From positions 281,979-345,978 of the forward strand of contig NW_026251746.1 of the NCBI RefSeq assembly GCF_025024155.1: a DNA stretch of 64,000 nucleotides. The letters run 5' to 3'. Shown in pieces: positions 44,601-63,760 of the stretch. The notes under the pieces are model-generated. The model saw only the letters and a list, made by a program, of their open reading frames with translations, did no database searches and was not told where the DNA came from. Numbering within the stretch: position 1 is the first letter of the stretch; each line of letters begins with the position of its first letter. The position numbers and the translations under genes are program-made. The stretch comes from Gamsiella multidivaricata. Taxonomy: Eukaryota > Mortierellomycota > Mortierellomycetes > Mortierellales > Mortierellaceae.

Positions 44601-47012
44601 AACGGCCACATTCTCCCCCGCCATTTCCTCGGTCAATGTGAAGGTTACGCAGAACTTAACAACAGCAAACTCATCCTCAAGCGCTGCAGTTCCCAAGCTC
44701 TCTCCAGCAGCACCCTCAGAAGGAACCAGTAAGACACCGGCCCTTACGTCAGTGGCACTATCAACACCCTTACCAGCAACGACCAGTCTACAGCCTGCAC
44801 CAGCCCGCATTCCTAAGCCTAAAACGAGCTATCGCCCCTCACAGCTCGTGGTGACGCGGATGACGGACATGGGCTTCCCATTGCGAGAGTCCAGAAAGGC
44901 ACTGATTCAAACGGAAGGACGTGTAGAGGATGCGATCGATCTGCTGACGAGCGGGGCTCAGCTGGCCGACGATTCGGAGGATGAGGCGGAGCAAGCCGCA
45001 GAGAAAGCAAAGGCGAAAGCGAAGGCAAATGCTAGTCTTGCAGCGAAGATTCCTCAGGTGAAAGCACAGGAGACTTACATGAACGGCCACAGCAACAGTA
45101 GCGCTGTACGAGCATCGCAGCAACCAGCCTCCAGTCCGACACTGAACCACCCAACGCACGCTACCTCTCAACAGCAGCAAGCGCATCACCGTACAGTCCT
45201 AGGAATGCAGCAGGTATCACCACGGCCCATGAACCACCCCGTACAGATCTTGCAGAGGACGCATGCGATGGCGCCCCACGTTCAGCCCCGTTCAGTCCCC
45301 ACACAAGTCCTCCAGCGACCGCCGCCCCATGTTCAGCATGCTCAACCGCAGATGGCGCCACAGAACCCGAACATTCGAAAGTCATTTTCGAATCAGAGCG
45401 TGCCCGCGATGTCAAGTCCGGTACCGCATCCGGCCACAACAATTGCCAGCTTTATTGCCCCACGGACAGCCCAACCAATGCCACCAACGCGTGCTCCATA
45501 TTCATACGGTCCAGCCTCGTCAGGAGTCCACAGCTCCAAGCCTATCGTCTCACCCCCGATCAGTGCTGGCCAACTGAGCCACAGCTCTTTTCCCAGAAGC
45601 CCTGGCTCTACATCGGCAGCTGTACTGGATCGTAATGCACCTGTAAGGGGATCGACTGGTGATATTGGAACGATCGGAATGACACGCAAGTTTGGAAGCA
45701 TGGACGTATCTGATCATCAAGGTTTTGGCTCGGGATCCAGCTTCTCTGGTTTTGCAGCCGCAACATCAACATGGGACGTAAGCATGAGTAACAAATCTAT
45801 GACGCCGACTTCGCTTGAACTCCCTGCGCCGATCAACAACGAATATCAACCATCTTCTATGGGGCATAACCTCTGGGCGACTCCTGGATTGTCAATACCT
45901 GGCCCATCGTTGCTTCAGCCTGTTAGCGATAACAGTGTAGGCTCTTCCTTTGGGTCACCGTTCCTAACCAGCTTACCAGCAAATCCTCACCAGCAGCACC
46001 AGCACCCACATCAACAGCACTCTCATCAGCAACATCCTCGTTCATCAAACGTCGAATCCTCCTTGGATGGGCTTCAGGGCTATAGCGAGAGCGATCTGGA
46101 CATAGTCAATGCAGGCGGCGAAATGATCAAGGATGTTTTGGCGATGACGGGCGCAATCGACTCGGAAGAGTTTGCAAAGTTTGAAGCAGAGTATTCCCTT
46201 CTGGGCACTGGACTATCCAGCACAGGACCATCGAAGGCCATAGGTGGGGGAAGAAGCAACAGTAATGGTAACGTTAATAGCAGCGGCCAGCCTATGGCTA
46301 ACTTGTGGGCTGGAAGTAGCAACAGCCATGGAGGTAGCAACGATGGAAGCCACGGGCTGCCCTCGCCCATTGGCACAGTGAATGGACATGCTCTCTCTTC
46401 GTCACGCCGAGGTTTTGACTCTGGATTTGACAGTAATGGCTCCAATGGTACGTATAAAGGGCTGTGCGCAATAAATGAAGTGAGAAATATCGTGCAGTCT
46501 ATCGTTTATATTCTGATATTATTACATTATATTATATTATTGACGCGGTTTCCCTTTTTTTTTTTTGCATAGGTTTGCTATCGGATTCCAAAGGAAGCGT
46601 CTCAGAATATAGTCAATGGAATTCTGGGTTCGCTTTGGAACAAGCCATGTACCCTTCATCGCGACAGCAACGGCAGCGGCAAGTGGGCTCGTCTGCGTTC
46701 GTGGACAGCTTCTTTGGATCGGACGCTAGGATCCCTACATCGCCCTACAGTCAACATTTGCAAAGTCATCAACAGCAACAGCAGCAGCAACACAGTCAGC
46801 CACTTCCGCCATTCGAGTACTCAAATTTCGGAGGATTGGGTGGGCACAGTAATACTAGTCCGGGTGAATCATTGACGTCCCCAACAGCATCCGCATTTGG
46901 GGCTATTGGCGCGATTGGAAGTAGTCGACACCAGCATCAGTCTGTAGGGTCTAGTTCTGCACCCATGCCAGGCGGCAGTAGCGGTGACCGGAATAATTCA
47001 AAGCAGCATTAA
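41665..47012 (+). CDS. Ankyrin-repeat and UBA-domain protein with acidic and Gln-rich regions (one gene, or two if the exon 3/4 phase break is real)
   Basis: Exons 41665-42006, 42146-42193, 42370-42623, about 42679-43156, 43275-43394, 43499-43783, 43889-46447, 46573-47012. Exons 1-3 read MSSVKKSKSRAMP... IQAFYREYAKVKASNNLLLL ... MAFRL in one phase, exons 4-8 in another. The best acceptor (AATAG, 42678) gives a one-phase conflict, so either a small indel exists or a second gene starts at ATG 42694. Downstream are a run of D/E (about 42870-42980), a charged coiled coil (RRVREEERRLKEEFRKKKIS), two ankyrin repeats (GLTPLHTAAKHVAPFEICKL, GRTVLHYAAQNGYADLVSLL), a UBA domain (44838-44955: VTRMTDMGFPLRESRKAL) and long Gln/Ser/Pro stretches. 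Role unknown; UBA suggests ubiquitin binding. Confidence 0.72.
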
Positions 47013-47158
47013 AGACAATTGTTGCGTTAACATTGAACACGATTCGCTGCGGATTATTAATTTAATAGTGATGTTGTACAGAAATACATATTACGCGAAG
47101 AGAGACAGGGGAGTGATAATAACTGAAGTGGCAGTAAGGGGCGATGATTGATAGTGCT

Positions 47159-49009
47159 TTACGGATTCTGTTGACGATCCCTCTTTTGTGCCTCCTTAAG
47201 CTCCTGTCTGCTATTGCAGGTGCGTCGATCGATCTTGATCTCAGAGTGTTCGTACGGTTTGGCGAAGTAAAACTCCTTGGGCTGTGACGAAGACGAAGGT
47301 GACGCTGACGATGGCGAAGAGGAAGGAGAAGGAGACGCTGGGGACGACGACGACGACGATGGAGCCAGGGACTGAGGCGCAGGCTTTGAGACACGAGGTT
47401 TGTGAAATGGTTTTGCTGCGGTTGTGGTACCTGGGCAGGCAATCGATTGGGAAGGGGTCATACATGAAATTGATACTGTAGAGGACGACACAATGGAGGA
47501 GATTGACAAAGACGAAGCTGAAAGCGACAAACCCGACATGTCAAATGAAGTAGGAGGAAACAACAATGGTGGGATCGGCGCGCTTCCGGATCCTTGGACG
47601 CTGTTACCAAGGCCCTGGATGTCGGTAGACAAAGCCGCCAACGTTGTTGTTGCTCCTGGTACTGGTTGGCTCGTTGTCAAGGAGGAAGGTGACGGCGATG
47701 ACGAAGGGGTCACTGCTGGGAAGAAGGGCGGATCATTCGTCCGGAGAGATCTGTTAGCATGGTTGATACTCGCCATGCGACCACTAGATCGTCCCGAAGA
47801 CGATCGTCCCAGGGAACTTGAGGCTGATCTTCCCACAGAGGACTGACCATCGACGCTGAGCAAGGGGTCGAATCTGGGCCTTAGTGCGGATGTCGAGGTT
47901 TGACGTCGAATTGACGGCTGGGATGTACGCCGCGCGTGGCCAAACCAGTGGGTCACGCTATTGTTAAAGTTGTTGACGTTGCTGGTATAGTTAACATTAT
48001 TGATATCGCTGTCGCAATCGGACGCGAACAACGCTCTCCCTGCATCTTCGTCCACAGCGAATCCCTCAGGAGACCCATTCATGTTTAACAGGTGAAGTCC
48101 ACCGCCATCTCCTCCTTTGACATCCATCGACCCTCCCATACCCCCCGTCATAGAACTGTCCGCCTGCAGGCCGCCAGTGAGTAGAGACAGTTGAACAGAT
48201 CCCCCATTGCGCGCCGAGGAATATCCTCCTACACCTTCGCCTGCACCAGGGGTCAGTAACCCCGCACTGGTGTTCAAGAACGACATAGGGTCTGACGTGT
48301 AATCGGGCATGGAGGACGTGCCACCGATAACGCCCTGAGCAACACAGAGCCCCGAGACCCTGTTGTCCGGCACAAACCCGCCGTTACTGGACACTAAATG
48401 TGCTGTCCAATCGGAGGGGGGCATACCCAAAGATGGGTCCCATGAATGGGATGAAGGCTGAGGCAAGGCATAGAAAAGATCCATCTCGGTCGCACAAATG
48501 GTTTGCATTGCCTGCAGTTGCAGATGTGGATGTGAATGTGCATCCGGTGGTGGTTGTAGCTGGAGTGGATAAACAAATGCTCCAGTGGGCATGGGCGAAG
48601 AAGGCGAAGGAAATCTGTGCGGGTCATTTGGATCAGGAGTAGAGTCAGAGGAGCTGAATCTGGAGTGGGAGGCAATCGAGTCCAAAAATGTATCCGTGGA
48701 GTCAAAAGACTGATGGAGTGTGCCTGGACCCTGAAGGAACCCTCTTGAGTGCTTGTAATTGTTGTTCAGGGTAAGCCGATCGAGCTCGGACGAGTCGTCC
48801 TGTGTGAAAGATAAGATAACACTGGCCTCGTTGTTGCTGGAGGTAAAATCCTTGGGGAAGTCATCCAGCTCGATTTCAAAGACCATTGGGGAAGGCAGAG
48901 CCTGCTGATTATCGTTCTTGATGGAGGGCAGCATTTGGCTGAAGCAGTTGTTGATGTTGTTGATGATGTTGTTATTGTTGTTGTTGTTGTTGTTGATGTT
49001 ATTAAACAT
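47159..49009 (-). CDS. Family member A: disordered Asn/Ser-rich protein with C-terminal F-A-x-P-Y/DRR/NSRxELK signature
   Basis: Single exon, 616 aa, ATG at 49009. It starts with an Asn/Ile run encoded by AAC/AAT repeats, then VFEIELDDFPKDF and long Ser/Pro/Gly-rich stretches, with no catalytic or known DNA-binding domain. The last 37 residues (47162-47272) read FYFAKPYEHSEIKIDRR, then TCNSRQELKEAQKRD. The same arrangement ends three further genes at 52.7-58.0 kb. No transmembrane segment or signal peptide. It resembles a transcription or RNA-binding regulator in composition only. The gene is convergent with the ankyrin-UBA gene (147 bp between stops). Confidence 0.8.
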   Translation of the reverse strand: MFNNINNNNNNNNNIINNINNCFSQMLPSIKNDNQQALPSPMVFEIELDDFPKDFTSSNNEASVILSFTQDDSSELDRLTLNNNYKHSRGFLQGPGTLHQSFDSTDTFLDSIASHSRFSSSDSTPDPNDPHRFPSPSSPMPTGAFVYPLQLQPPPDAHSHPHLQLQAMQTICATEMDLFYALPQPSSHSWDPSLGMPPSDWTAHLVSSNGGFVPDNRVSGLCVAQGVIGGTSSMPDYTSDPMSFLNTSAGLLTPGAGEGVGGYSSARNGGSVQLSLLTGGLQADSSMTGGMGGSMDVKGGDGGGLHLLNMNGSPEGFAVDEDAGRALFASDCDSDINNVNYTSNVNNFNNSVTHWFGHARRTSQPSIRRQTSTSALRPRFDPLLSVDGQSSVGRSASSSLGRSSSGRSSGRMASINHANRSLRTNDPPFFPAVTPSSSPSPSSLTTSQPVPGATTTLAALSTDIQGLGNSVQGSGSAPIPPLLFPPTSFDMSGLSLSASSLSISSIVSSSTVSISCMTPSQSIACPGTTTAAKPFHKPRVSKPAPQSLAPSSSSSSPASPSPSSSPSSASPSSSSQPKEFYFAKPYEHSEIKIDRRTCNSRQELKEAQKRDRQQNP

Positions 49010-52000
49010 AATGGGGTTGTTTGAAAAGTAAAATGTGTACGGGAGTATGTGAGTGTATGTGTCCGTGGATGGAGGGTGCTATGTGTTCTGTGTAGCGTTT
49101 ATGTGGGTATGGGATGTAGGGCAAATGTATTGGTATTAGAACAAGGTGAGAAACAGGCGAAGTATAGACAAGAGAAAAGGAAACAAGCAACGGCAATTGG
49201 GCCTGATACTTTAGCGTAGGTAAGGGGATCAAAGATCCAGTGGAATCTGGTGAAGGTAGAGGGTAACAATGGTGGGCAAAAAGAGGGAGAGAGGAGGAGA
49301 GGAGGAGAGGAAGAAGAGCGGTGTAATGGGATTGAGACAAAGAGATGGCGATAAGTAGAGAAGGAGGGAGGCCTTTATATAAGGGGACAGGTGTGCGGCA
49401 TGTGTAGTGTATATCAAATATGAAGGTGTCGCCCATGGTGGTCTAAACCCATTTCAGGGCATTCGGGGACAGGATGAGAGTCGATAGCTGCCGTCGAGTA
49501 CTTCGCCGGCACTTTTGCCTCAACACGCAGCGCGTTTAAGACCCGTGTAATCTATGCGTCTATATTTTGATTGAACATTGATAGACAACCACCATATGTG
49601 CATGCAGGCAGACAACCACAACCAGGCACCTATCGTGTGGACCCCCCTGACTCCCCGCTCCTCTTTTCTACATTCCGATTACCAAACCCTTTAGTCCACC
49701 ATTTCTCCATTAGGGCTGGTTCTCGATATATAGTAATATCTATCATCGTCTCAAGCCAGGCCCCTCTATGTAATTAATGAAATTGCATCTTTTCTGTGTA
49801 CTTCATTCGTCGTCATTCAAACCTAAATCTATCGGATATCGGATCGTCTCTCCCCATGGCAGCATTCAAAGCACTGAGGGTAAAATAGCGGACGCCAACT
49901 CAACGCCTGGTACGTGCCCCTTATATCAAACTGTTGATTCAGTCCTATACTGCGACAGGAGAGCTTCTTTTTGACCAAAAATAAAGAAAGGAAGAAGGAA
50001 AGTACAAAAGAGAGTGAAAGAAAAATGCTGGTCTTCCGAGGGTTGTCCAAACATCTGCCAAAATAGTCGATCGATTTTCAAAAGGGATGGTTAGCGCTAA
50101 AATGGATCTTATGGACCGAACACTTACGAGGTCGAAGTGCAAGGAACCCCAATGATCTATTCATGGTAATGGAGCTCCTCGCCATCAACACTGGCAAAGA
50201 TCACTGCAAGACCCTGCAATAACCATATATAGGCTGAGAGATCCTTTTTGAGAACCTTGTATTGATATCTTTAAGACACAGCCAATAATGGATGAGCTTC
50301 GGGACGTTAGTGCCATTATGATGGTTGAGCCATATGCCACTAGCCCGACTTTTTCGGTCGTAGAAAATCATTCCAGTAACTCGTCTCGTCAACGCATGCA
50401 TAGCTTTATTGACCACCTCTGCGCGTTACAGATATATACATACACAAGTAGACGTAAACAAACAACACTTGCCTTAAAGGCGGATCCTCCCCTGAAACCG
50501 CGAGCGATAAAATAGATCATCCCCCCAATTATTATTGTAGAGATAAAAGGCAACTTCGTCTCGACTTCCTTTCTCTTCTTTTATACAATATCATCAGGAA
50601 GTGTTTTCTTGAAATCGCACAAGTCCACGAAAGGAAGAAGGGGTGCCACCATAGCCTTATAGAAGAACGGCCTTTGTTTGTTCCACAGATTCTGGTCATG
50701 GACCTGTGGATGTGATACCTTTTCCAACAACTTCTTTAAAAAAAGGGCTACAAGAGAGTGAAAACCTTCTTGTACATGTACAAGCCTAGGTACAAGAATT
50801 CATCGTCATTAGATACTCATTCCCCGCACACACTACCTGTTGCTTAATACTCTTAATGGCGATGTTAAGGGCGAGGACAAGAGCGATGCCGATTGACCGG
50901 TAGCGATCCTTTTGCGATTAGATAAAGCTGATCTCATACACGCGGAACGTGATACATCATACGCTCCACGAACACGCATGTCAAAAAGACATGCGATTCC
51001 GCCCTGTATACATTGAAGCTGAAGGGATAGCAGGGCTGTCGCCCTGGGAGGCTCTTTATGAATGTACCCCTCCTCGTCGGTAGTCGTTGAGCTCCTCCAT
51101 TCTACGCCTCTCGCATCCACAGCATTTTACAGGGCTACTTGGCGAAGTATTTTTGAGCGCCACACGGTTTATCTGTGCATTGAAGCGCCAATGTCTAAAA
51201 GGATGCTGACCCTTTTACGATGTCTGGTCGCGCTAACAATGGACACGAAATACCTTGTCATGCGTCCTGTTGACCCGTCTGCACCCGAAGATGCCGCTGT
51301 TCTTTGCGTTCATTGTCATGCAACGAGTGCTGGTATTGTTGATTCTGTCCCCTGTTGCAGATGGTTTTCTATGTCATTTGTTGGTCTGGTGAAAATTGCG
51401 TCGACTTTGAATGACTCCTGACCCTGCCTCATAGGATTAAAAGTAGTTTTCATGCATTTCAAACAACGACGTCTGCACTCTACTGACAATGAGTCGTAAT
51501 ATAGAGGACTCTCCAGAGGCCAGCCTAGGACTTGCCATCGCAATACGCCGTAACGGAATGATTTTCTCAGCTCTAACTTGCTAATGCCACATTGATGCTT
51601 AGCTAATTGTACTTTTGGAACGCGTTTTGCAATTTCGTATCCGGATGTTATTTGAGAGCACGACGCCCACGAGTGCAGTCCGAAAGGGCATCTTACCGTA
51701 CACGCCGCTGAGAGTTATTTTTACAGTGCCAAGGATTCGAGGATTTGGGCGCACCAAAAGATTTGACACTCATTCCACTTTTCGCTGCGCGAACAGCTTC
51801 ATTAGATGCTAGGGTCATGATTGGTGCAAACAACATCCTCAACTTTTGTAGCTTTACTATACTTTCGACATTTTTAGTCAATCGACGAGGTTACTTTCAC
51901 CGACGTCCTTTTCTCTTTTTTTTGGACCGCGGTCCAAAAGCCTACACATGCTGCGGAAAACTTCCAACTAATCCATCGTAACTTGGTTACATATGGCCTG

Positions 52001-52728
52001 CGGTAGCATAATTTATCTATTGTTCACACTGTTCCTTCTTTTCTTTTTTTTTTTTTTTTTTTTTTTGGGGGGGGGATAAAAGGGAGAGGTCCCATCCCTG
52101 GCAACCAAGCATATTGCGAAAGGGCTTGGTGGACCATTGGTCCTTAGTTCCTTCGCAAAGGCACCGGCAGTCCGCCAGCTATTAGAAAACCAATCATTGC
52201 AAGGCATCAGGCACTGCATCGAGTCCACCGACCTACCGCAGCTTCAGGTCTGCACGCTGTGTTCGCACCCCCATTCTTCTTTGCCTGTTTGATTTGCACC
52301 ACGCACCTAGATATTGAATGTACGTTCTCAATTGCTCACTAATCTATCAGTTTCATTAATTAGTCGATTGTATTGAAGGTTGGCTCTTTGGAGCGTGAGG
52401 AGGCTGGGCGCTGGAAAACATTCTGTACATGTTCATGGTGCTCGATGCACTACCGAACAAAATGAGCCCCTTGGCCTAGAGAAGAAAAAGAGCAAAAGGC
52501 ACAACAGTTTGTCTGCATCTTCTCTCTACAACCACATCTCATCTCGCGAATCATCAGCACCATCGCCTATCTCCCTTCGTCCAATCTACACTCTTAAATC
52601 AGCATCGACTCAAAACCATCCCTCCAACCAGCGCTCACCCACGTCCACCTGTGTCCACCTTTCGCGATCTTGTAACAAAGTACATCCTCTCGTCACGCAC
52701 CACAGCACACAAAAAGTCGCTAAACGTT
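49010..52728. other. 3.7 kb intergenic region, mostly featureless
   Basis: Just upstream of gene A are GGAGAGGAGGAGAGGAAGAAG purine repeats at 49285-49320 and A/T-rich sequence. A T/G homopolymer run (T22 then G9) lies at about 52044-52075. At 52090-52260 (+) one coding-like frame (TKHIAKGLGGPLVLSSFAK, LLENQSLQGIRHCIE) has no start and no splice partner, and may be a relic of a repeated fungal gene family. Nothing else recognisable; no tRNA found. Confidence 0.4.
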
Positions 52729-53973
52729 ATGTCACCCACACAACCACCTTCAAACAAGCTTCTGCTGACGAGCATGGATAACGAGGACGCGGACACTGAG
52801 GATGCTAGCCGAGCCGACTTCATTGGAGATGACCGCAGGATTATTGACAATGGCCGGGAATTGAGTATAGTGGACTATTACGACTCTCACGAACAAACGG
52901 ACGTGACGATTAGAAACGAAAGAAAACCTGGCTTGCCACCTGGTATGGCCCCAGCTCCTCCTTGTGCACCTACTCTTCTCAACTCTACCTTCACACGCAG
53001 TACCGTTTATTACCCCACTATTCTCCACATTCCCAATTGCTGTATGGCATTTTCAAACATCAAAATATATATAAAAACTAACATGACCAATGTCTTAATC
53101 CTCGTCACAACAGTCAAACGGCAAGGTGCAAACGATCCTGAAAAGAGTCTACCATCAGGTCTAGTTCCTGCACTACTCTGGGAAGATCCAAGCAAGTTCC
53201 GGTACCCAGACCCGCTATCGACCGCACTCTCTAAGGCCTTGTTGTGCACCGCCGGACAGGATGGGCTAACATCAGGCCATGAGTTTACCCCAGACCTTTA
53301 TTCGCGTCTTTGGGAGTATGAGTTTGCATCCTACTCGGCCACTACTGCATTTCCGCCGGGTTTCGATCTTAATGGTGCCCAGACCATTCACGATATGGAG
53401 CACCTATCAGTCAAGCTAGAGAAGACCCATGCGAAAGCCATCGTCATCGGAACTCCATCCGCATGCGGACCTGCGCTGATAGGAGGAGAACTGTCTACTG
53501 CTACCGCGAAGCGTCCTCCCTCAAGGCATCTTAGCGCAAAGCGTTCAACTGCAAAGCGTTCACCCGCAAAGCACATTGTCACCGCACCTAACTCAATAAT
53601 GAACGCAACCCGGATGCCCAGTCGTGCCCAAGCCCCTTCTACAGCCCAGCCAGTGCAGTGGGCAGAAAACATGACACCCGAGTCTGCTAAGTCCAAATGG
53701 CAAAGATGTGAACCTGGGGGTCCTCCCAGTCAACCAACTGCTTCGACGACAGCAGCAGCAGCAGCAACAACAGTAACAGGGGAGCTGAACGAGGAATATC
53801 TACCAGCAATAATCGAGACCATGCCAAACGTCCACACCCCTTCGACTTCCGCTAGTCGACAGACACTTCAACCCACTTACTTTGCGGAGCAGTATAGCCC
53901 CGACGATCGCTCGGACAAGCGCAGGAACAACATTCTAAAGCAGTTGAAGATGGCCAAAGCCAAGCAATCTTGA
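52729..53973 (+). CDS. Family member D: divergent copy of the same C-terminal signature
   Basis: ATG at 52729 (MSPTQPPSNKLLL). Exons 52729-52942 and 53114-53973 give 357 aa. The 171-nt intron (GTATGG...ACTAAC...ACAG) is an exact multiple of 3 with no stop, so the unspliced form is also open (414 aa). Regions: acidic N-terminus (MDNEDADTEDASRADF), LVPALLWEDPSKFRYPDPL, a basic repeat (AKRPPSRHLSAKRSTAKRSP), an Ala/Thr run, then the final 32 residues: TYFAEQYSPDDRSDKRRN and NILKQLKMAKAKQS. The FAE-x-Y, D-x-R-R and LK-x-A-K-A positions line up with members A-C, with one short deletion. Function unknown. It is the only family copy on the plus strand. Confidence 0.7.
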   Translation: MSPTQPPSNKLLLTSMDNEDADTEDASRADFIGDDRRIIDNGRELSIVDYYDSHEQTDVTIRNERKPGLPPGMAPAPPCAPTLLNSTFTRSTVYYPTILHIPNCCMAFSNIKIYIKTNMTNVLILVTTVKRQGANDPEKSLPSGLVPALLWEDPSKFRYPDPLSTALSKALLCTAGQDGLTSGHEFTPDLYSRLWEYEFASYSATTAFPPGFDLNGAQTIHDMEHLSVKLEKTHAKAIVIGTPSACGPALIGGELSTATAKRPPSRHLSAKRSTAKRSPAKHIVTAPNSIMNATRMPSRAQAPSTAQPVQWAENMTPESAKSKWQRCEPGGPPSQPTASTTAAAAATTVTGELNEEYLPAIIETMPNVHTPSTSASRQTLQPTYFAEQYSPDDRSDKRRNNILKQLKMAKAKQS

Positions 53974-54926
53974 CGTGCAAACAAGGTGTCTATTGCATGG
54001 GGATGAGAATTCATACATACCATACACCGCTAATCTATTATCCCATTACCCTACTATCTTATTATCCTATTATCTTGTCATTCTATTATCCTGTTATTTA
54101 TTATCCTGTTATTTATTATCCTGTTATTTATTATCCTGTTATTTATTATCCTGTTATTTATTATCCTGTTATCCTATTATCCGTCTCTTTCTTCTCTCGT
54201 CTTTCCTCGTTGTCTTCTCCGTTCACTCGTCATCACTATCTATTTTCTCTCTCTTTCTTTCTGCTCACTGTTCGCTGTTCACTGCCCATTGTCCGCTATC
54301 ATCTAATGTCTACTCTCTCTCTCTGTTTTCTTCGATTTTTCTTTATTTATGTTGTGCCAAATATTGGATTGATAATTATATCAATAAAAGATTATACATC
54401 ATCTAATTCATCTCGATAATAAACCATGACTGTCCCTCGTGGTATGATCTCGGCTGTTCCAGGACAGGACAGCACGCCAAGAACAATTCTTTTGGAGCAC
54501 TGAAAGGCGTCAATATTTATTAGCCCATGCTTCGAGGAAGGAATAAAATCACAGTTTATTTCTCTCGTCCAAAAAAGGGTATTATTTCTGCGCAAACTTT
54601 ATATTAAGCACACAGCCTTCAGGGGGAGAGAAAGCTCTTTTGAAGATGCGAAAGAAACGGACCAACAGTGGAATAGGGTCTCTCGAATGAGAGCGCAAAA
54701 ACGAAAATATGCCGACATGCGATAGGGGGACTCTCTGTCCAGGAGTAGATGTTGTGAATATTTATTATTATCACCATTATCACTATTACTATTATTGTTG
54801 TTGCTGCTGTTATCGTTATTTTTATTGTTATTGCTGGCTGTACCTTTGCTGGTAACAAAAGTGAATGTACCATAGAGCAGCTTTTTTTCTTTTTAACGGA
54901 GTTAAAAAACCCGGGCAATTATGACT
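53974..54926. other. Intergenic between family members D and B, with simple repeats
   Basis: Contains the 15-bp tandem array (54086-54160), pyrimidine-rich sequence to 54330, and AT-rich trinucleotide-like repeats at 54765-54832. The frames at 53970-54419 read only the repeat. No gene seen. Confidence 0.5.
54086..54175. repeat. 15-bp tandem repeat, five perfect copies plus a partial
   Basis: Unit TTATCCTGTTATTTA, at 54086-54100, 54101-54115, 54116-54130, 54131-54145 and 54146-54160, followed by a degenerate copy to 54175. It begins about 110 bp after the stop of member D. Related TTATCCTATTATC units precede it. Confidence 0.95.
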
Positions 54927-55769
54927 CTAACATAACTGCTGTAATTGATGTTCTTTTGCCTGGGCCTGCTTCAGCTCTTTCCGAGAGTTGTATGCACGTC
55001 TGTCCACCTTTGAGGTAGGTGGATGATAGGGCTCAGCAAAGAAGAAGAGCGGGGCTGAATTCGAACGGACGGTGCTGCGGGATGTTCTCGTCACCGATTG
55101 CGTTACCTGACCAACAGGACTGCGGAGTGCCGACGACGGTCGCGATGATAATGGTGACCAGGACGAGGATGAGGACTGAGAAGAATTCGGTGGGGAGTAT
55201 GGAGGTGTTCCTGGTGAAGAGAATCCACTACGGGGATTACAGCTATCGGGATTTGCTTCAGCTGGTTTGCTCAGCTCACCGATCTCTGCCGGCGTTCCTG
55301 AAATCGAAGTCTTGGCCATAGCGTCGTCCAAGAGAAAGAGCGGGGGACGGCCTCGCCTACGGCGTAGGCCCGAACCCATGCTCAGGATTCTACCGTCTGT
55401 TGAGACATCCATAGAGTTGGTCCGCTGGAATGAAGAAGGACTGACTGGGACCACAAACTGGATCTCTTTGCCCGTCTTGTTATAAGACTGGGGCTTACCG
55501 GCATTGCAACTCAACTTTATATGGCGATTGATAATAACCCCGTCCGAAGGGGGTGGATGCGGCGGATCTTTAGGGGTTGTGGTTGCGGTAGCGGCTGAGT
55601 CTACTAGCAATGGTTCGTTATTAGGAGAGAACGTATCAATATTGGAGAATCTTGTGTCCTTGGAAATGATTTTGGTATCGACAGCTTGTGTGGTAGGCTC
55701 GGCATTAACATCCTTAATAGAAGGACTGGCAGCTCTCCTTAGAAAAGAGAATTGTTGCGAAGAATGCAT
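54927..55769 (-). CDS. Family member B: AT-hook-like protein with the C-terminal signature
   Basis: ATG at 55769 (MHSSQQFSFLRRAASPS), single exon to the stop, 280 aa. An upstream in-frame stretch preceded by an acceptor-like CACCTAG (about 55800) means a 5' exon cannot be excluded. Segments in order: GKEIQFVVPVSPSSFQR (55425-55485), an AT-hook-like LRRRRGRPPLFLLDD (about 55330-55370), a Ser/Pro-rich linker, then LFFFAEPYHPPTSKVDRR, AYNSRKELKQAQAKE and the C-terminus. The RGRP core is the minor-groove-binding part of AT-hooks, so chromatin or DNA contact is plausible. It is closest to member C, which lies next to it on the same strand, suggesting tandem duplication. Confidence 0.78.
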   Translation of the reverse strand: MHSSQQFSFLRRAASPSIKDVNAEPTTQAVDTKIISKDTRFSNIDTFSPNNEPLLVDSAATATTTPKDPPHPPPSDGVIINRHIKLSCNAGKPQSYNKTGKEIQFVVPVSPSSFQRTNSMDVSTDGRILSMGSGLRRRRGRPPLFLLDDAMAKTSISGTPAEIGELSKPAEANPDSCNPRSGFSSPGTPPYSPPNSSQSSSSSWSPLSSRPSSALRSPVGQVTQSVTRTSRSTVRSNSAPLFFFAEPYHPPTSKVDRRAYNSRKELKQAQAKEHQLQQLC

Positions 55770-57038
55770 AGTGATATTATTCTCGATAAATGTAAGACTA
55801 GGTGGGTGTAACAATGGCGCTGCGAATGATGCAGGATGTTAAGAGGAGAGGAGGAGTTCGAATGTCGGTTTAGTGAAAGAAGAAGGTGGAGATGGAACTG
55901 CATTTTATATCCAATCCTTCCCTCTTGGCGAAGTGCCTTCAGTTAATTAATTAGGCCCTTGCGTCGGCCGAATAATGATCGCTTGTAGCCGCTAATTGGG
56001 CTGTAATACCATGTTTGGAGGTTAGGCCAACCTCTTGTAGACAGTTCGACCTTGAGGGACTTTCGGTGATCATGGAATCATTCAGCGCATGGATCGCTGC
56101 AGTGGAGTTTTCTGGTTCCTGAGAGAAGCGGCCATTTACGTGGCTCGATGGCAGCTGACCACATCCAGCATTCACAGCGCCAATAGTGCAACCAAATCGC
56201 TCGTCCGATTGTGCAATGGTATCTGGCCAATCCTCCATGTCTTTGAGGAACAGCTCTACCTCCAAGTCGCGTGCATCCAGAACGCCATCTTCATTTCCTT
56301 CAGGGGGTACCATACTAGGGTCGACTATCCTCTTCAGTGGTAGGTTGTTTAGGTGTAAGAGTATGAGTGATCTCTAATTTTAAGTAACAACTGTAGAAAG
56401 GCGCGTTTTTTGGTAGTTCTTTTGTTTTTTGTATATAACACTAGACACAAAAAAAATAGTATGAACGGCAAGGGTTGCTATCCCTTCTTATATGGCTCAA
56501 GAAAACTGTGGAAGCACTCTCCATACTACGGCTGTTGTCTGCGATTCTGAGCAGACACGTACAATTTGCGGATGGGATCCGTACCGGAACAGCGTCGCAA
56601 TGGACGCTAAGTGGAGGTTCGAGAGTGAAGCAGCTGTGGAGGCAGTGGTACCGCTCGGTACATGACGGAACCCTGACCAAAAGGCCCACACTAATAGCTG
56701 GGCTAGACTCCACTCTCTGGAACGGACCGCAGGGGAAGTATATACTGTAGCCATTTGGTATGCGGCAAAAGAATCTTCTGGATCAATGTTTACAAACCAC
56801 AGTAGATTGAATACCTTTAGAACGTGCGACTCTACCGGCGGGAGGCGAAGTATTCATTTCTTTTCATAGAATTTCTCTCCTTCCTTATTCAAGAATGGCG
56901 AAGTCAACCTCTTCAGCGCACAGCTCTTCCTAGTGCTTTCGACTAATCAAGACATTGTCTCAAATGCTTGCTTATTCTATTTTAGATCAGGACCCTGACC
57001 AATGTCGGCTGTTGGTGCTCTAATTTCCGCTTTTTTGT
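55770..57038. other. 1.27 kb spacer between members B and C with two weak coding-like frames
   Basis: Minus strand 55951-56313: an open frame of 120 codons, VPPEGNEDGVLDARDLEVEL... then FLKDMEDWPDT, coherent but without relatives known to me; it could be a former upstream exon of B. Plus strand 56475-56750: KQLWRQWYRSVHDGTLTKRP recalls the fungal GCR1_C-type domain (WxxWxxG...P) but has no clear gene context. Both are unconfirmed. Confidence 0.35.
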
Positions 57039-58010
57039 TTATTGCATTCCATGATCTGCCCTCGCCTGTGCAATCTTGAGCTCTTTTCGGCTATTACAGG
57101 AGCGTCTATCGACCTTGACATCTGAGTACTGATAGGGCTCGGCGAAGAGATACTTAGGAGGGGACGGTAAAGACCGCGGGGTCTCTGAGGTACTTGATGG
57201 CCTTAGATGGAAGTAAGTCGCAGCTGAAAGGATGTAAGATGGCGAGGGAGTATTTTTCCTCGTGTTCGTCCCCACGACTCTACTCGACTCGCCTGGGCTA
57301 TAGACCGGTATGGGCATTGTCGTAAGCGCATTCGTTGTCGAACCTAGATCAATGACCATGTAATGGTCTGTGCGATTGGGCGAGGAACGGCAGGGACGGC
57401 CACGGCCACGCTTAAGAGCTATAATTGTATTTGGTACTTCGCTCTGACAAGATGACACGGATGATCCCGCCTGTTGGAATTCCGAAGACTTGACGGCTAT
57501 GAATGAAAACTCTTTGCCCACACTATTGCTTTCTTCGTTATTATCGCCATCATTCTTGGGGTCCTTCATCCGCGAATCCTCAGAGCTTTTAGATGGATGC
57601 GGTGTCGCTGGCAGATCCATTAGTGGTGTCGTTCCCCTCGTCGGTGTCGTTGCAGCTGAGACAGCCGTTACTGTTGCTGCTGCTGCTTCAGCCTGAGCGT
57701 CGCCAATGAACTCCCATTCAATGCTAGTGGTGCTCGTTGTGCGTGTGGTGGTTGGAATGTTTGTGTAGTATATTTGCGTTGCAGCGGCGGTAGTTATATA
57801 ATCAGGTTGTCCATACTGTGGACATGGAATTGCAGACTTTGTCGAGGAGTGGAGAAGGGTTGCAGGTGTAAATATCGCACTTGCTTGTGAGATATCTCCA
57901 AGAGACAGTGGGGACAACACATCCATGTAACAGCTGTCGGTTGTCGAGGATGACAAGGGCGGGGATTCTGGCCAGTCAAAATGTGTGGCCAAGTCATGGT
58001 GGTCCTGCAT
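57039..58010 (-). CDS. Family member C: AT-hook-like protein with the C-terminal signature (5' end uncertain)
   Basis: The first in-frame ATG, at 58010 (MQDHHDLATHFDWPES), gives 323 aa. The frame stays open upstream without an ATG (PQPIPLRPLPSEQQYLAG) to an acceptor-like CTCAG near 58112, so a 5' exon is likely. Segments: MDVLSPLSLGDISQASAIF, a Thr/Ala-rich middle, GKEFSFIAVKSSEFQQ (57475-57523), an AT-hook-like KRGRGRPCRSSPNR (about 57375-57415), and the last 37 residues YLFAEPYQYSDVKVDRR, SCNSRKELKIAQARAD. It shares both blocks, in the same order and spacing, with member B. Probably nuclear; function unknown. Confidence 0.75.
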   Translation of the reverse strand: MQDHHDLATHFDWPESPPLSSSTTDSCYMDVLSPLSLGDISQASAIFTPATLLHSSTKSAIPCPQYGQPDYITTAAATQIYYTNIPTTTRTTSTTSIEWEFIGDAQAEAAAATVTAVSAATTPTRGTTPLMDLPATPHPSKSSEDSRMKDPKNDGDNNEESNSVGKEFSFIAVKSSEFQQAGSSVSSCQSEVPNTIIALKRGRGRPCRSSPNRTDHYMVIDLGSTTNALTTMPIPVYSPGESSRVVGTNTRKNTPSPSYILSAATYFHLRPSSTSETPRSLPSPPKYLFAEPYQYSDVKVDRRSCNSRKELKIAQARADHGMQ

Positions 58011-58365
58011 GCCAGCAAGATACTGCTGTTCCGATGGCAAAGGTCGCAGAGGTATAGGTTGTGGTCTTGTAGGGCCCGCTTGGTGTTTGAGTGGCTCGAG
58101 GCTGACTTTACTGAGCGTTGGAGGCCAGGTGGGACTCTTGTGCGATGTGGTCAGTTACACCGGCCTAACGTGCAACGAGGTTGCTTGCGGGAGGGTGAAG
58201 TAACGGAAGCTCAGTGGCAACAAGAAAATCTGCAGATCTGATCGCGAATCTGAGGTATTACAAGAGATTTTTCTAGGCACTGGCTGCAATTGCCCTGATA
58301 TATCGACCCTATTGCTGTAGTTATTAACGCCGCGACGACTCTGTTGTTACCGTTCTGTCGCTATT

Positions 58366-58846
58366 TTAAAGCTTTTTGCTGATGTTATTGCTGAGTCTAA
58401 GGCAGTTGTTGCTGTTCGTGTTGGTGCTCAGAAGGGTATGGTATTCGGCCGCCTTCGCGTCTACGCTGGGTCTGATCTCAATGGTCTGGAAGTATGAAAT
58501 TGTATAAGCAGGTGCGTATTGAGCTGGAGTTGGTAATGTACGTGCTCTATTGACGTGAAAAGGGTACAGTTGATGATACTGTAGCTGTCTTTGAGGGTCG
58601 ATGAGTGGAAGCGAAGCGCGAAGTGGCCCTTCATTTATTCGTTTTCTGGGCTCTGGTCCTTTTTCTCGCCATACATGCCCACCTATAGCTCAGTTGACTA
58701 AAGAGAGCTATGTTGACTCGTTTAAACCCCGCAGGTGCGTGCAATGACCACTTCCATAAATATCAATTGAACACACAGATGAGCTACAGCTGAAGAACAA
58801 AAATAAGCGGCAGCAGCTTACAGGAACCGTCGTCAGAATGGGTCAT
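58366..58846 (-). CDS. Small two-exon ORF, or 5' exons of family member C
   Basis: Exon 58846-58822 (MTHSDDGS, donor GTAAGC) joins in phase 1 to 58682-58366 (acceptor CTATAG), giving 113 aa ending NNISKKL. The second exon is an open frame of over 100 codons with no internal Met, the mark of a spliced exon, and reads as ordinary protein (RASLPLIDPQRQLQYHQLYP, TPAQYAPAYTISYFQTIEIR). Either it is a tiny gene of its own or, by using a GT inside it, the 5' part of gene C 350 bp downstream. No domain recognised. Confidence 0.5.
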
Positions 58847-59175
58847 TGCGCGCGTGCGTGCATGTTTGTTATACTAATGCTTACTCTCTGGCGTTCCTGG
58901 GATGACTAAAAATATGGGCGGAAGCAGGGAATGCTTCCATGATCCATGCACCGTTGAACCGCCTTCAATTCATCACAAGCTCATCACTTCTCAGGTCGCA
59001 TTGTCTCCGTTGCATCAAGTTTTTCCATTATTTCTCGACGAAGCGTCCTTTTCATCCGATCAAGCATTGCGGGAATGTCAAGCATGAAAATGAAAGAGAG
59101 AAGCATGTCAACTGCTCCACATTTTCGGCTTTTATCGATTTTCCCGCCAAAATAAATAAATAATAAACTGTTTAT
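58847..59175. other. Short intergenic region
   Basis: 329 bp with no gene seen. It holds the 3' flank of the XPF-like gene and the promoter of the small ORF. AATAAATAAATAATAAA at 59152-59167 lies just past the stop of the minus-strand gene at 59176. Confidence 0.4.
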
Positions 59176-61139
59176 CTATATGAGTGGCCCAGAGACGATC
59201 TTATTGAACGTTGCCTATTGAATCCAGAAAAAGAAGAAGAGGGAGGAGATACGCAGGTTAAACGACAACGATAAGAATAGACAAAGAATGATACCGAAGC
59301 CCAGTATGATTCTGCTTATGCGCGGGAAAAAAATCCCGGCGAATGGTTGTGAATAAGGTTGAAGAACAATCGCCCAAAAAAAACATTAAAATCAAAAAAA
59401 GATATCAACGGAAACGGCCGCAGCAGCCTAAGCACTTACCAATATCTCGCTGTCAATAAATTTTCCTAACATGCTAACGCGCTGTTTGTGGTCCATGGAC
59501 ATGAGCTCCTTGAGTGAACACAGAGATAAGATCAGCTGGATTGAAAACGGGTTGAACAGGCCGAAGGACGCCAAAAAACGCTCGTGCTAGGAAGGAAAGT
59601 ATATACAAATTGAGAGTCAGCCGTTGGTCCTTGAATAATACTCTGCGCGCATACGACGATGACACTACACCATACAGCGAGACAACAGTTACTTACAGTG
59701 CTGTCCTGTTCATTTAGCCAGTCTCGCCAGAGCCATTCTTCACGGCTTCGCCATCCATCTTCGTCTCTCCGTAATCCAGACTGAGCAGCAATATCGATCT
59801 GCACGGCAATTCTTTCTCCAATCGCACGGGTCATCCATGCGGCACAACGCTCATCTGAAGCAAAGAGCACCCGCGTCTCAAAGACCAGTTCGCTAGCTTC
59901 ATTATATCCATTTGGGAATGAATCTTGCACAGATTTGAGCTGTCTCGAATGAGTTGGACTCTGATGGCTGGACAAATTGAGAGCACTGCAATAGCTTAAT
60001 CTTGACAGCCATCCTGATCGAGTATGTGTTGAAGGTACCCAGGCTGTCAGCTTGTTAAGTTGGGGCATCACTGGTCCGGCAAAGGGGTCGAGTCGAGAAA
60101 CTGTGGCTGAGTGATCGTCAGACCGGTGCGATGGCGACGACATGGGTTGTTTGAGTGCTGGGTGGAAGGCCGAATGCGTCTGAGTTGGTGTTGATTCTAT
60201 CCCCCTCGCTGAAAGTTGTTTAGGTTTCGAGAGTGCTGGGCCACTCCAATTATACTCCTCAAGGATTAGCCAGACCGACTTGTATCGTGGTCCTATCCTG
60301 GCCAACGTCACAAGGAGTTCGTTCAGTCCCGCATCTGGATCTTGGATGATGGCCTGGCCAATCTCGCGAAGAGGATAGAGTAGCACAGCGTTTCCCTCGT
60401 CCAGAATAATGTCTGCCTCCACGCGGGCCGCTGCTCGATTGCGTGTACACTCTGGTAGTAAAGCCTGTAAAAATGAAAAGAGCAAATGTTGATTACAGTG
60501 GCTGTGCTGGATTTTTATCGACAGCTGGCCTTTGCCTATTTATAAAATTACCCGCAGATACTCCATGTCCCTTTCCACCAACTGAACTCTGCCGCAGTCT
60601 GGATCAAGTAGCGCGCGGACGATAGCGGTGTTCTGGAGTATCCGATTAGAGACGATATACCGGTGGGTCACAAAACTTGGTGGCAACAAGGAATCGTATG
60701 GCCGAGGTTTTATGTTTGTCGATAGATGATCTGACACCCTTGTGCAGTTTCGATCCTGGCTTTGACTCGGATTTAATGCCTTTAATGGCGCCTTTCTCGC
60801 CAATGAATTCGGTTTTGACTGGATTATACTACTGGGCGCTGGAGGGCGTTTTGCGTGGTCAAGAGTGGGAGGTTCATGCTTTAGTCTCTTTATCAGCGGC
60901 AAGTGGGTTGAACTCGATGGTGGCGCTTGCTGGGTCCTGCTCAGTCTCCGTAGGGCCATGAACTTGCTGACCTGGGATGACGGCGAGAATTGAGAAGGGG
61001 ACGCCGATGAGGTTAAGGAAGGATAATGACGATCTGAAGACGATGATTTATTTGCGATAGGATGCATGGGAAACGAATGTCTGAAAGGAAAGAGAAGGAC
61101 GAAAAGAATAACCAGCGGGGCGCCATAATATTTCCGCAT
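59176..61139 (-). CDS. XPF-fold protein resembling meiotic SHOC1/ZIP2
   Basis: Exons 61139-60552, 60464-59697, 59586-59440 and 59214-59176, all phase 0, 513 aa from ATG 61139. A later start at 61067 (MHPIANKSS) is likely if the hydrophobic N-terminus is not real. Core: RYIVSNRILQNTAIVRALLD, RVQLVERDMEYLR, ADIILDEGNAVLLYPL, YKSVWLILEEYNW. This is the XPF/ERCC4 nuclease-like strand order, but the catalytic ERKxxxD is absent. After a linker come LVFETRVLFASDERCAAWM and a helix-hairpin-helix-like HERFLASFGLFNPFSIQLIL. The combination resembles SHOC1/Zip2, which with Spo16 binds meiotic branched DNA. Other inactive XPF paralogs are possible. Assignment is from pattern memory. Confidence 0.6.
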
Positions 61140-61206
61140 GCGAATTTATTAATAAAAATTAGGCCGCGCTATAACGTGTTGCAACAGATTTCGACCCTGA
61201 CAGATA

Positions 61207-62529
61207 TCATCCCTGGGAGCCTCCCGGCCCTGTATAACCACGCGTCCTGGGCGCACGTACATCCTCCGCTAGCAGAGGCTCCGTTTCGGTAGTGTCAAAG
61301 TCGTCATGACCATGGCTCTTGGCTTGGAAATGGTAATAGATACACATCACCAACAACGTGCCCTGAAGACATCCTGTTACTGCATATACAATCCAGGTCG
61401 TCCAATTGGCACCGGGTCTAAGTGCCAAGGATAATGTCAAGAGTGCTGCCCCTGGTGTTTGCATCATCATCATCGGAATGCTGAGTGCTCCGACAGACTA
61501 GTGGGAACCAAAACCATACATTAGCGCGCCAAGCTTGGAGCCCTATCCTATGGTCCTAACTGTAACTATCGACCAAACATACCTTGCGCTTAAATGTCCT
61601 ATGGATCTGCGGGACATACTGAATGGTTGCAAGGACGACGCTCGTGATACCCAAGAAAGTAGCCCACGCTGAGGTCCAGTGGTTCTCAGGGCCGCCAACA
61701 AAGGCCAGAAGGACTATCGTCACGACAATGCAGATAACGAGATGCATTGCCACCACATGGGCGATCAACAATGACAATGCCCATTCTTCTGTCTGGGCGG
61801 GTAAAAAGGAGAATAAGTGTCGAATATGCTGTTGAGATCGCTCAGCGACTATCTTGTGCACCGGGTAGTAAATGAGATACAAGACGAGACTATTATTACA
61901 ACGCCAGCAAAGAGACGACAAATATGTCAGTACGGCTCCAGTTTCAAAAATTCTCCCTATCGACACCTTCATCTAGCTCATTTCTCGAATACATACACCA
62001 GGCCAAACATGACAAACTGGACACCAAGTTGGGCGATTCCAAGTATACTCTCCAGACATGGTCCAAGGCTCTATTCAATTAGAAACTGTTAATACAGCGG
62101 CAACTGACAGTTCTTTGTATCAAGAGGCCCATCTATTCACCGCTGTACTTACTAGGACACCGCAGCACAATATCACCTTCCACTGAAGAACGACAATATT
62201 AAGAAATGTGGAGCTGGCGGAAATAGTTCCGAGTAGTAAAAACCAGGGACTAATGCCTTCGCTGGTTCCCTTGTGAATGATACGGAAGTGCTGTACATAC
62301 AAAGAGAGTTCTCATAAATACAAAAAAAAAAAAAAAACTACGCAAATGCATCAATATGTCCATGCAGCAAGCATAGGCGTACCTGAGGCAAGTATGAGAC
62401 GACCATGCCGACCAAAATAAAGAGAGAAAGTGCCAGTTCGAAGTCACTATGCCGGTCTATACACTCACCTGGCTGGGGCTGACCAGGCGCCGGTGGCTCG
62501 GGACCAAGCTGAAAGGGAGTAATCCACAT
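61207..62529 (-). CDS. PQ-loop repeat membrane transporter
   Basis: Exons 62529-62383, 62290-62153, 62070-61997, 61889-61583 and 61497-61207; 318 aa. Start MWITPFQLGPEPPAPGQ was chosen because the open frame upstream has no ATG. PQ-loop 1 forms across the first splice: VGMVVSYLPQHFRIIHKGTS, then EGISPWFLLLG. PQ-loop 2 also forms across a splice: ATIQYVPQIHRTFKRKSVGA, then LSIPMMMMQTPG. Seven hydrophobic helices and an acidic-dileucine-like tail (TETEPLL) suggest a vacuolar/lysosomal membrane. PQ-loop proteins include cationic amino-acid and cystine exporters. Substrate unknown. Confidence 0.85.
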
Positions 62530-62853: not shown

Positions 62854-63760
62854 TTACTGGCAGCGAGAACCAGCATTAACTTCATCTATTCCTTTTATCT
62901 CGCGTACTGCTTTCTGAAGGAGTGCCGCCGCAGAAACAAAGTAAGTCTCCGTGCACTTCCTGGTCTTGCCATTGTGAACCACTCGACCAAGCTCCATCCA
63001 AGCCTGGCGAATTGTCTCCTCACACTCCCACATCACTTGAGCCCTTTCCTCCTCCTGCCGTCTTCTTTTTTCCTGCATCTCCTGTTGTCGCACGGCTTGG
63101 AGTCGCTGCTCCTCCTCCTCTCGTGCTGCTTGTAGTTGTTGAAGTAGATTCGGAGAGAGAAACTCCTCTAATGGAGGGCCATAATCCTCTTCCAGGACGG
63201 TTTCCTCATTCTCGTCAATTGACTGTCCCGTTAAGCTCAGTTGCATTGTTGTCAAAGCACACTTGGAACCCTGGATAGATCCTCGATACCAAGAACATGT
63301 GCTTACACGGTAGACCGTGTTTTTCGTTGTCAGGGCAAGAACAGGAGCGGAGCCGTTTGTCCGACAATATATCGATAGCATATTGCGCCTCAGGCGGGGT
63401 CTGAAACGACAACACAGAGATCAAGCCTTCCACAGACTTAGTAATGTTGATCAATGTTCTCGCCCGAGCCGAATCAACTTGGATGGCCTTTTTACGCCGT
63501 GCCTCCTCGTGGAATGTTAGGCGACGGGGTTGAAGGCCGCTTGTGATCTTGAAGTATGTGGTGCGGTACTGGCTTTCCACCACACCTAGCAGGATGTAGA
63601 TGAGTTCGTCGGCTCGCAGGTTGCGCTTTCCCGCCAGAAAGTTTCGCTTGAGGTTTCGATGCCATCGCTCCACAAGGTTATTTGTGTTAATATGTTGATG
63701 GTGCTATTTCAAATGAATAAAGTGCTTCAACGTTAACAAATTGACTAGAATAAGACCAGT
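62854..63760 (-). pseudogene. MULE-type transposase C-terminal part with SWIM zinc finger (relic or unfinished gene)
   Basis: Read on the minus strand: INTNNLVERWHRNLKRNF, ADELIYILLGVVESQYRTTY, then the SWIM finger CSCPDNEKHGLPCKH (CxCx(n)CxH), typical of the C-terminus of Mutator-like transposases. An acceptor (GAAATAG, about 63706) precedes it. After PGFQ the frame stops within 20 codons. An open frame in another phase continues with SIDENEETVLEED, a charged coiled coil (RRQEEERAQVMWECEE) and a stop at 62854. Joining them needs a 40-nt intron (GTGTGC...GACAG), very short, or reflects a frameshift. The catalytic DDE part is not visible; sequence upstream to 64000 is AT-rich. Confidence 0.65.

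Follow-up and report, generated by a model that had tools for sequence, protein, structure and literature searches.

The genome of the soil fungus Gamsiella multidivaricata contains a small, old and fast-diverging gene family, with four members side by side and one elsewhere, whose proteins have a conserved tail at or near the C-terminus in common. This uncharacterised family is real. In the reading that we favor (probability of about 0.55), it encodes disordered nuclear proteins, probably restricted to this lineage, in which an RGRP motif would serve as DNA tether, an acidic-aromatic segment as a contact and the tail as a docking (or DNA-contact) element, the copies acting as variant regulators.

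The window, that is, the whole stretch of DNA analysed, takes up the final 64,000 bases of contig C113 (345,978 bases), one of the 180 contigs of a 37.5 Mb genome. Gamsiella is placed under Mortierellomycotina in an excerpt of a published study (PMC10386755), and the ABC-F protein encoded in the window is 96% identical to its counterpart in Dissophora ornata. This and the other neighbouring genes are of ordinary fungal kinds (TPR, F-box, kinase, ZIP transporter, mitochondrial carrier, and ankyrin-UBA proteins). The five family members are listed below, with window coordinates for genes 1 to 4.

47159..49009, minus strand: gene 1, 616 aa, low-complexity, without RGRP core (open reading frame list; coding score, own frame only)
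52729..53973, plus strand: gene 2, open frame of 414 aa, most divergent tail (open reading frame; coding score)
54927..55769, minus strand: gene 3, 280 aa (open reading frame list; coding score)
57039..58010, minus strand: gene 4, 323 aa (open reading frame list; coding score)
L011:4298-6223 on contig C93, minus strand: distant copy, 641 aa (genome search with a composite tail)

Each of genes 1 to 4 is an open reading frame at these coordinates with an ATG start and a stop directly after the tail; in the program-made frame list, gene 2 begins at an upstream GTG. In the distant copy, 640 residues are identical to NCBI protein BC939DRAFT_435252 of Gamsiella multidivaricata.

The preliminary description had proposed that the four cluster genes end in a shared module of 32 to 39 residues, and this is confirmed: the tails, counted from two residues ahead of FA to the stop, are 37, 32, 39, and 37 residues long in genes 1 to 4, respectively.

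47162..47272, minus strand: gene 1 tail, FYFAKPYEHSEIKIDRRTCNSRQELKEAQKRDRQQNP (alignment; leave-one-out, 44.6 bits)
53875..53970, plus strand: gene 2 tail, TYFAEQYSPDDRSDKRRNNILKQLKMAKAKQS (alignment, genome search, leave-one-out)
54930..55046, minus strand: gene 3 tail (alignment, leave-one-out)
57042..57152, minus strand: gene 4 tail (alignment, leave-one-out)

In the clear copies (genes 1, 3, and 4) the tail reads FA[EK]PY-x5-K[VI]DRR-xx-NSR[KQ]ELK-x-AQ. The signature first put forward for all four genes stands for FA[EK][PQ]Y, which is present in each of them, and needs amendment for K[VI]DRR (exactly five residues past the Y) and NSR[KQ]ELK, both found in three of the four, gene 2 having diverged to RSDKRR and NNILKQLK. 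Eight columns are invariant across the five tails, namely F, A, Y, N, L, and A together with D and R, and gene 2 retains FA, Y and the invariant D, R, N, L, and A. The FAEPY element sets in 30 to 44 residues ahead of the protein end. The absolutely C-terminal position that had been claimed holds in the four cluster genes and fails in the distant copy, where extra residues follow; the tail is thus near-terminal in the family as a whole.

The tail of gene 2 is weak yet real. Its last 60 residues score 15.8 bits against an HMM built from the other three cluster tails and the distant copy, a value reached by none of 5000 shuffles (best shuffle 11.3). When the same HMM was run over 931 stop-free stretches of the window, gene 2 came fourth (12.1 bits, E 0.0075), behind the three clear copies, which score about 73 bits, and ahead of a stretch antisense to an F-box gene (9.1 bits, E 0.064). 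In leave-one-out scoring the copies obtained 57.6 (gene 3), 56.8 (gene 4), 44.6 (gene 1), 29.3 (distant copy), and 15.8 bits (gene 2), and in all five cases no reported shuffle equaled the real score, HMMER having reported 1504 to 1677 of the 2000 shuffles made per copy.

A composite tail query, typed from an alignment that already contained the weak gene 2 tail, gave five scored candidates in the whole 37.5 Mb genome, all five of them family members (in order: gene 4, gene 3, gene 1, the distant copy, and gene 2, the last with E 0.03). With the gene 4 C-terminus as query, the C-termini of gene 1 (E 1.6e-10) and gene 3 (E 2.1e-7) were matched, while two further genome queries, in an insensitive search, returned gene 2 alone (whole gene 2) or the distant copy and gene 3 only (distant tail). 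The family counts at least five copies, a lower bound since only the best candidates were scored and the other queries missed known members. A FAEPY pattern has seven matches, three in the family and four in unrelated frames. The DRR..NS part, written as a degenerate DNA pattern, has 86 matches, against 56 for a reversed control. The context was read by eye for 30 of these loci and for 20 chosen among the 56 others, and among the 50 FA..Y occurs only in the known distant copy; the remaining 36 consist of genes 1, 3, and 4 and 33 loci set aside from the match letters alone. No sixth copy was accepted from the 86 pattern loci (50 judged by context, 33 by letters). One locus (L077) reached 9.4 bits with the tail HMM (E 0.007 over 20 preselected loci); it was left out of the count because there are stops in the match region and no FA..Y.

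The tail is read in frame and looks to be under selection, as judged from codon comparisons. In ten pairs of 32 to 33 codons, pS lies between 0.59 and 1.12 and pN between 0.24 and 0.51, with pS above pN in ten of ten; these are rough values, with few codons and one pS above 1, and pN is lowered by itself because the stretch was selected for protein likeness. Many of the shared residues are encoded by different codons, in support of translation in these frames and of selection at the protein level. In all five copies the coding frame alone has a positive codon score, the other five frames being negative. It was trained on nine stretches of our own choice, five of them with a Pfam family above cut-off or clear homologues, one with a match below cut-off, one without a hit, and two unscanned. 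Short stretches are poorly separated by this score, since a 66-residue plus-strand stretch between genes 3 and 4 scores 0.107 and the frame of a 120-aa open reading frame described below scores 0.065.

Four of the five genomic copies lie within 11 kb with few coding stretches between them, in agreement with the local duplication that had been suggested. The accompanying remark that almost no genes separate the copies is also borne out: the gap is gene-poor, and among 37 stop-free stretches of at least 50 residues scored in 49.0-52.7 kb the top two are a stretch of 69 residues, lying antisense to the beginning of gene 1, and one of 70. The duplication is not a recent one. Synonymous sites are near saturation, from which the duplication of the cluster is judged to be old, and in 46500-60000 no repeats of at least 22 bases were found beyond low-complexity ones.

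Several other elements were seen around the family loci. A tandem array with a 15-base unit in 7.5 copies (window 54068-54182) lies about 95 bases downstream of gene 2, and an exon-like stretch (59474-61145, minus strand), in which three scanned open reading frames gave no Pfam match above cut-off, adjoins gene 4. At 61556-61972 (minus strand) a PQ-loop repeat above cut-off is probably part of a transporter-like gene. A SWIM zinc finger fragment (Pfam, above cut-off) occupies 63218-63703 (minus strand) at the contig end, where the assembly breaks; we take it to resemble the C-terminal portion of a transposase of the MULE type. A DDE_Tnp_4 match, presumably Harbinger-like, lies about 1.3 kb away from the distant copy (L011:7516-7989, plus strand). 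With the SWIM fragment and the DDE_Tnp_4 match, transposon-like sequence is thus found near both family loci.

The bodies of the proteins had been described as otherwise dissimilar, and this holds, to the extent that shuffles show it, for genes 1 and 2 but not for genes 3 and 4. The latter two align from a middle motif via RGRP to the tail (E 1e-11, single comparison). With the tails removed, an alignment as good was given by 0 of 300 shuffles for gene 3 against the distant copy, by 1 of 300 for gene 3 against gene 4, and by 7 of 300 for gene 4 against the distant copy; the tail-less bodies of genes 1 and 2 gave no alignment above shuffles with any copy (best 17/300). The features of the two aligning cluster genes are the following.

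55422..55481, minus strand: middle motif of gene 3, NKTGKEIQFVVPVSPSSFQR (body alignment)
57471..57527, minus strand: middle motif of gene 4, NSVGKEFSFIAVKSSEFQQ (body alignment)
55344..55361, minus strand: AT-hook-like core of gene 3, RRRGRP
57393..57410, minus strand: AT-hook-like core of gene 4, RGRGRP, within KRGRGRP

The middle motif takes the forms GKEIQFVVPVSPSSFQR, GKEFSFIAVKSSEFQQ, and GRGCSFLVPITPSIFRR in gene 3, gene 4 and the distant copy, respectively, and is followed by the RGRP core, which with its basic neighbours reads RRRRGRPP, KRGRGRPC, and KRKRGRPP in the same order. An RGRP core with flanking basic residues is therefore present in three of the five members and absent from genes 1 and 2, of which gene 2 has a basic stretch with KRSPAK. 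The residues S, P, T, Q, N, G, A, K, R, E, and D make up 71% to 76% of the five copies, a crude sign of disorder.

Near its start the distant copy carries an acidic-aromatic motif, RELEVDDFLREMDFWSDSV, which was seen in one other place only, an open reading frame about 180 bases upstream of gene 3.

55951..56313, minus strand: 120-aa open reading frame with acidic-aromatic motif RDLEVELFLKDMEDWPDTI (shuffles, BLASTP, coding score)
53042..53113, plus strand: probable in-frame intron of gene 2, 72 nt, GTATGG ... CTAAC ... ACAG (inferred from signals)

The 120-aa frame resembles the distant copy (0 of 300 shuffles as good; BLASTP E 2e-4, single comparison), and its first 61 residues matched only themselves in an insensitive genome search. 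The coding score shifts frame between this open reading frame and gene 3, with a low-score stretch between them. It may be either the first exon of gene 3, joined by an intron, or a split-off gene; a TATA-like stretch lies immediately upstream of gene 3 and keeps the split possible. The putative intron of gene 2 has a donor, a branch site and an acceptor, and leaves the tail untouched.

The proteins were assigned to no known family, as the preliminary description had anticipated. Pfam and NCBIfam on the four cluster proteins, and Pfam on the distant copy and on the C-termini, gave no match at cut-off, and the PDB gave no convincing match by sequence. One of the five 70-residue C-termini matches SR-25 (E 0.0041, below cut-off), probably through its low-complexity part, and none of the five matches another family. 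The bZIP basic region, singled out beforehand as a domain that the tails might prove to be, found no Pfam support in proteins, C-termini or tails; neither bZIP nor bHLH domains were detected by Pfam in the four proteins, the five C-termini or two tails alone. Pfam AT_hook (PF02178) gave 12.9 bits, under the 17.4 cut-off, with a fragment of the distant copy, and no match with a gene 3 fragment or with the five whole proteins, so that RGRP is to be taken as a motif match and not as a family assignment. Among the best 60 of 103 PDB matches to the tail profile (E up to 10), mostly antibody chains, the best was 4gs5, whose stretch YFAKAFAKTQTDKIDKRA, which we take to be the A10 motif of adenylating enzymes, aligned with the tail (chain E 0.032, stretch E 0.59). 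This match is taken as chance; it covers a short peptide only, and Pfam found neither the AMP-binding domain nor its C-terminal domain.

The family is likely to be lineage-restricted, as far as sequence searches tell. In a search of 5.8 billion proteins, which works by shared words, gene 4 gave 5235 candidates and a single match, itself, and for a profile of the five sequences the best 8000 candidates scored gave a single match, the distant copy. The gene 4 search did not return gene 3, nor did the profile search return genes 1 and 2, although their lengths qualify; because these sister copies in range went unreturned, the absence of outside relatives is weak evidence. An ABC-F control search returned many Mortierellaceae species among its best 120 of 8000, so that proteomes of such species are part of the collection. 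The 70-residue C-terminus of gene 4 had 412 pattern matches in bacterial and archaeal genomes and 41 in viral contigs, none of them a relative, and literature listings on Gamsiella, on AT-hook proteins of Mortierella and on wider subjects showed nothing about the tail family.

Taken on their motifs, these proteins look like an undescribed set of nuclear regulators. The RGRP motifs would tether them to AT-rich DNA, and their occurrence in three of five members makes a nuclear, DNA-linked role more likely. The acidic-aromatic N-terminal segment may act in activation or in cofactor contact with the transcription machinery. The aromatic and basic tail would serve as a short linear motif by which every copy docks to one common partner, or else as a second DNA contact. 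Its conservation across bodies that do not align fits a portable binding element; docking is favored by its survival on unrelated bodies and by the six of eight invariant columns that are F, A, Y, N, L, and A, and DNA contact by its positive charge, the four cluster copies carrying +2 to +4 between FA and the protein end. In the distant copy the charge is +1 over the 33 aligned columns (hand count) and, owing to the residues after the tail, −2 from FA to the end. Helix amphipathicity of the tail does not exceed that of shuffles (266-889 of 1000 shuffles as high). On this view the copies would be regulatory variants, with tether and docking tail retained and the linkers drifting.

The same charges, including the +1 over the aligned columns of the distant copy, lend themselves to the foremost alternative, an improbable one in our view, in which nucleic acids are bound chiefly by the tail itself (as a short basic helix or a basic region of bZIP/bHLH type) and the AT-hook-like motifs play an incidental part. 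An end position would leave the tail free for such contact. However, the tails have no supported Pfam match, the distant copy is negative when counted from FA to its end, and the mostly F, A, Y, N, L, and A invariant columns suit protein contact at least equally well.

We rate slightly lower the alternative that the tail is a signal for targeting (nuclear import) or for stability (degron-like), spread among otherwise unrelated proteins by duplication of an exon or 3′-end. Genes 1 and 2 have, by the shuffles, only the tail in common with the others, and its C-terminal place and basic clusters would suit such a signal, but it exceeds the usual import signals in length and specificity (by general knowledge), further residues follow it in the distant copy, and genes 3, 4 and the distant copy have more than the tail in common. 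A functionless coincidence of low-complexity open reading frames, in keeping with the low complexity of the bodies and with the lack of outside relatives in the weak protein searches, is very improbable in view of the shuffle tests, the whole-genome specificity of the tail query, the excess of pS in every pair, the coding scores and the NCBI record of the distant copy.

Beyond the favored reading of DNA-tethered variant regulators with a docking tail, we suggest tentatively, at somewhat short of an even chance, that these are undescribed transcription or chromatin regulators restricted to Mortierellaceae or to the genus, with a new C-terminal domain (FAEPY-KVDRR-NSRKELK), which diversified in a tandem cluster and kept the tail and the DNA tether. 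If true, this would establish a short C-terminal interaction domain as new and add a family whose members are likely nuclear regulators to an early-diverging branch of the fungi; the five paralogues of this one genome would offer a small test case of how disordered regulators keep short anchors while the rest drifts. If the proteins are not nuclear, they form an uncharacterised family of modest interest.

Among known systems, the family would work most like AT-hook regulators, its membership among these being read from the motif only. HMGA-type proteins are similar in the basic-flanked RGRP core and the richness in disorder-type residues, and the KRGRGRP of gene 4 is the core of the HMGA2 AT-hook 1 peptide, as given in an excerpt of PMC8934665. 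HMGA carries three AT-hooks according to a passage of PMC11526092, whereas one core per protein was seen in Gamsiella. The Gamsiella proteins are also longer and add a middle motif and a conserved tail at the C-terminus, and genes 1 and 2 are coreless. The plant AHL family is likewise multigene and combines an AT-hook-like motif with a second conserved module, in that case the PPC domain that AHL proteins possess (excerpt of PMC8157401). It differs in this module, as the five Gamsiella proteins have no PPC match in Pfam. The tetrapeptides WRPW and WRPY dock corepressors at the C-terminus of transcription regulators, and the tail resembles them in having a short aromatic-proline-aromatic signature close to the C-terminus; FAEPY differs in being another sequence, in lying further inside the protein, and in the conserved basic segment that follows it.
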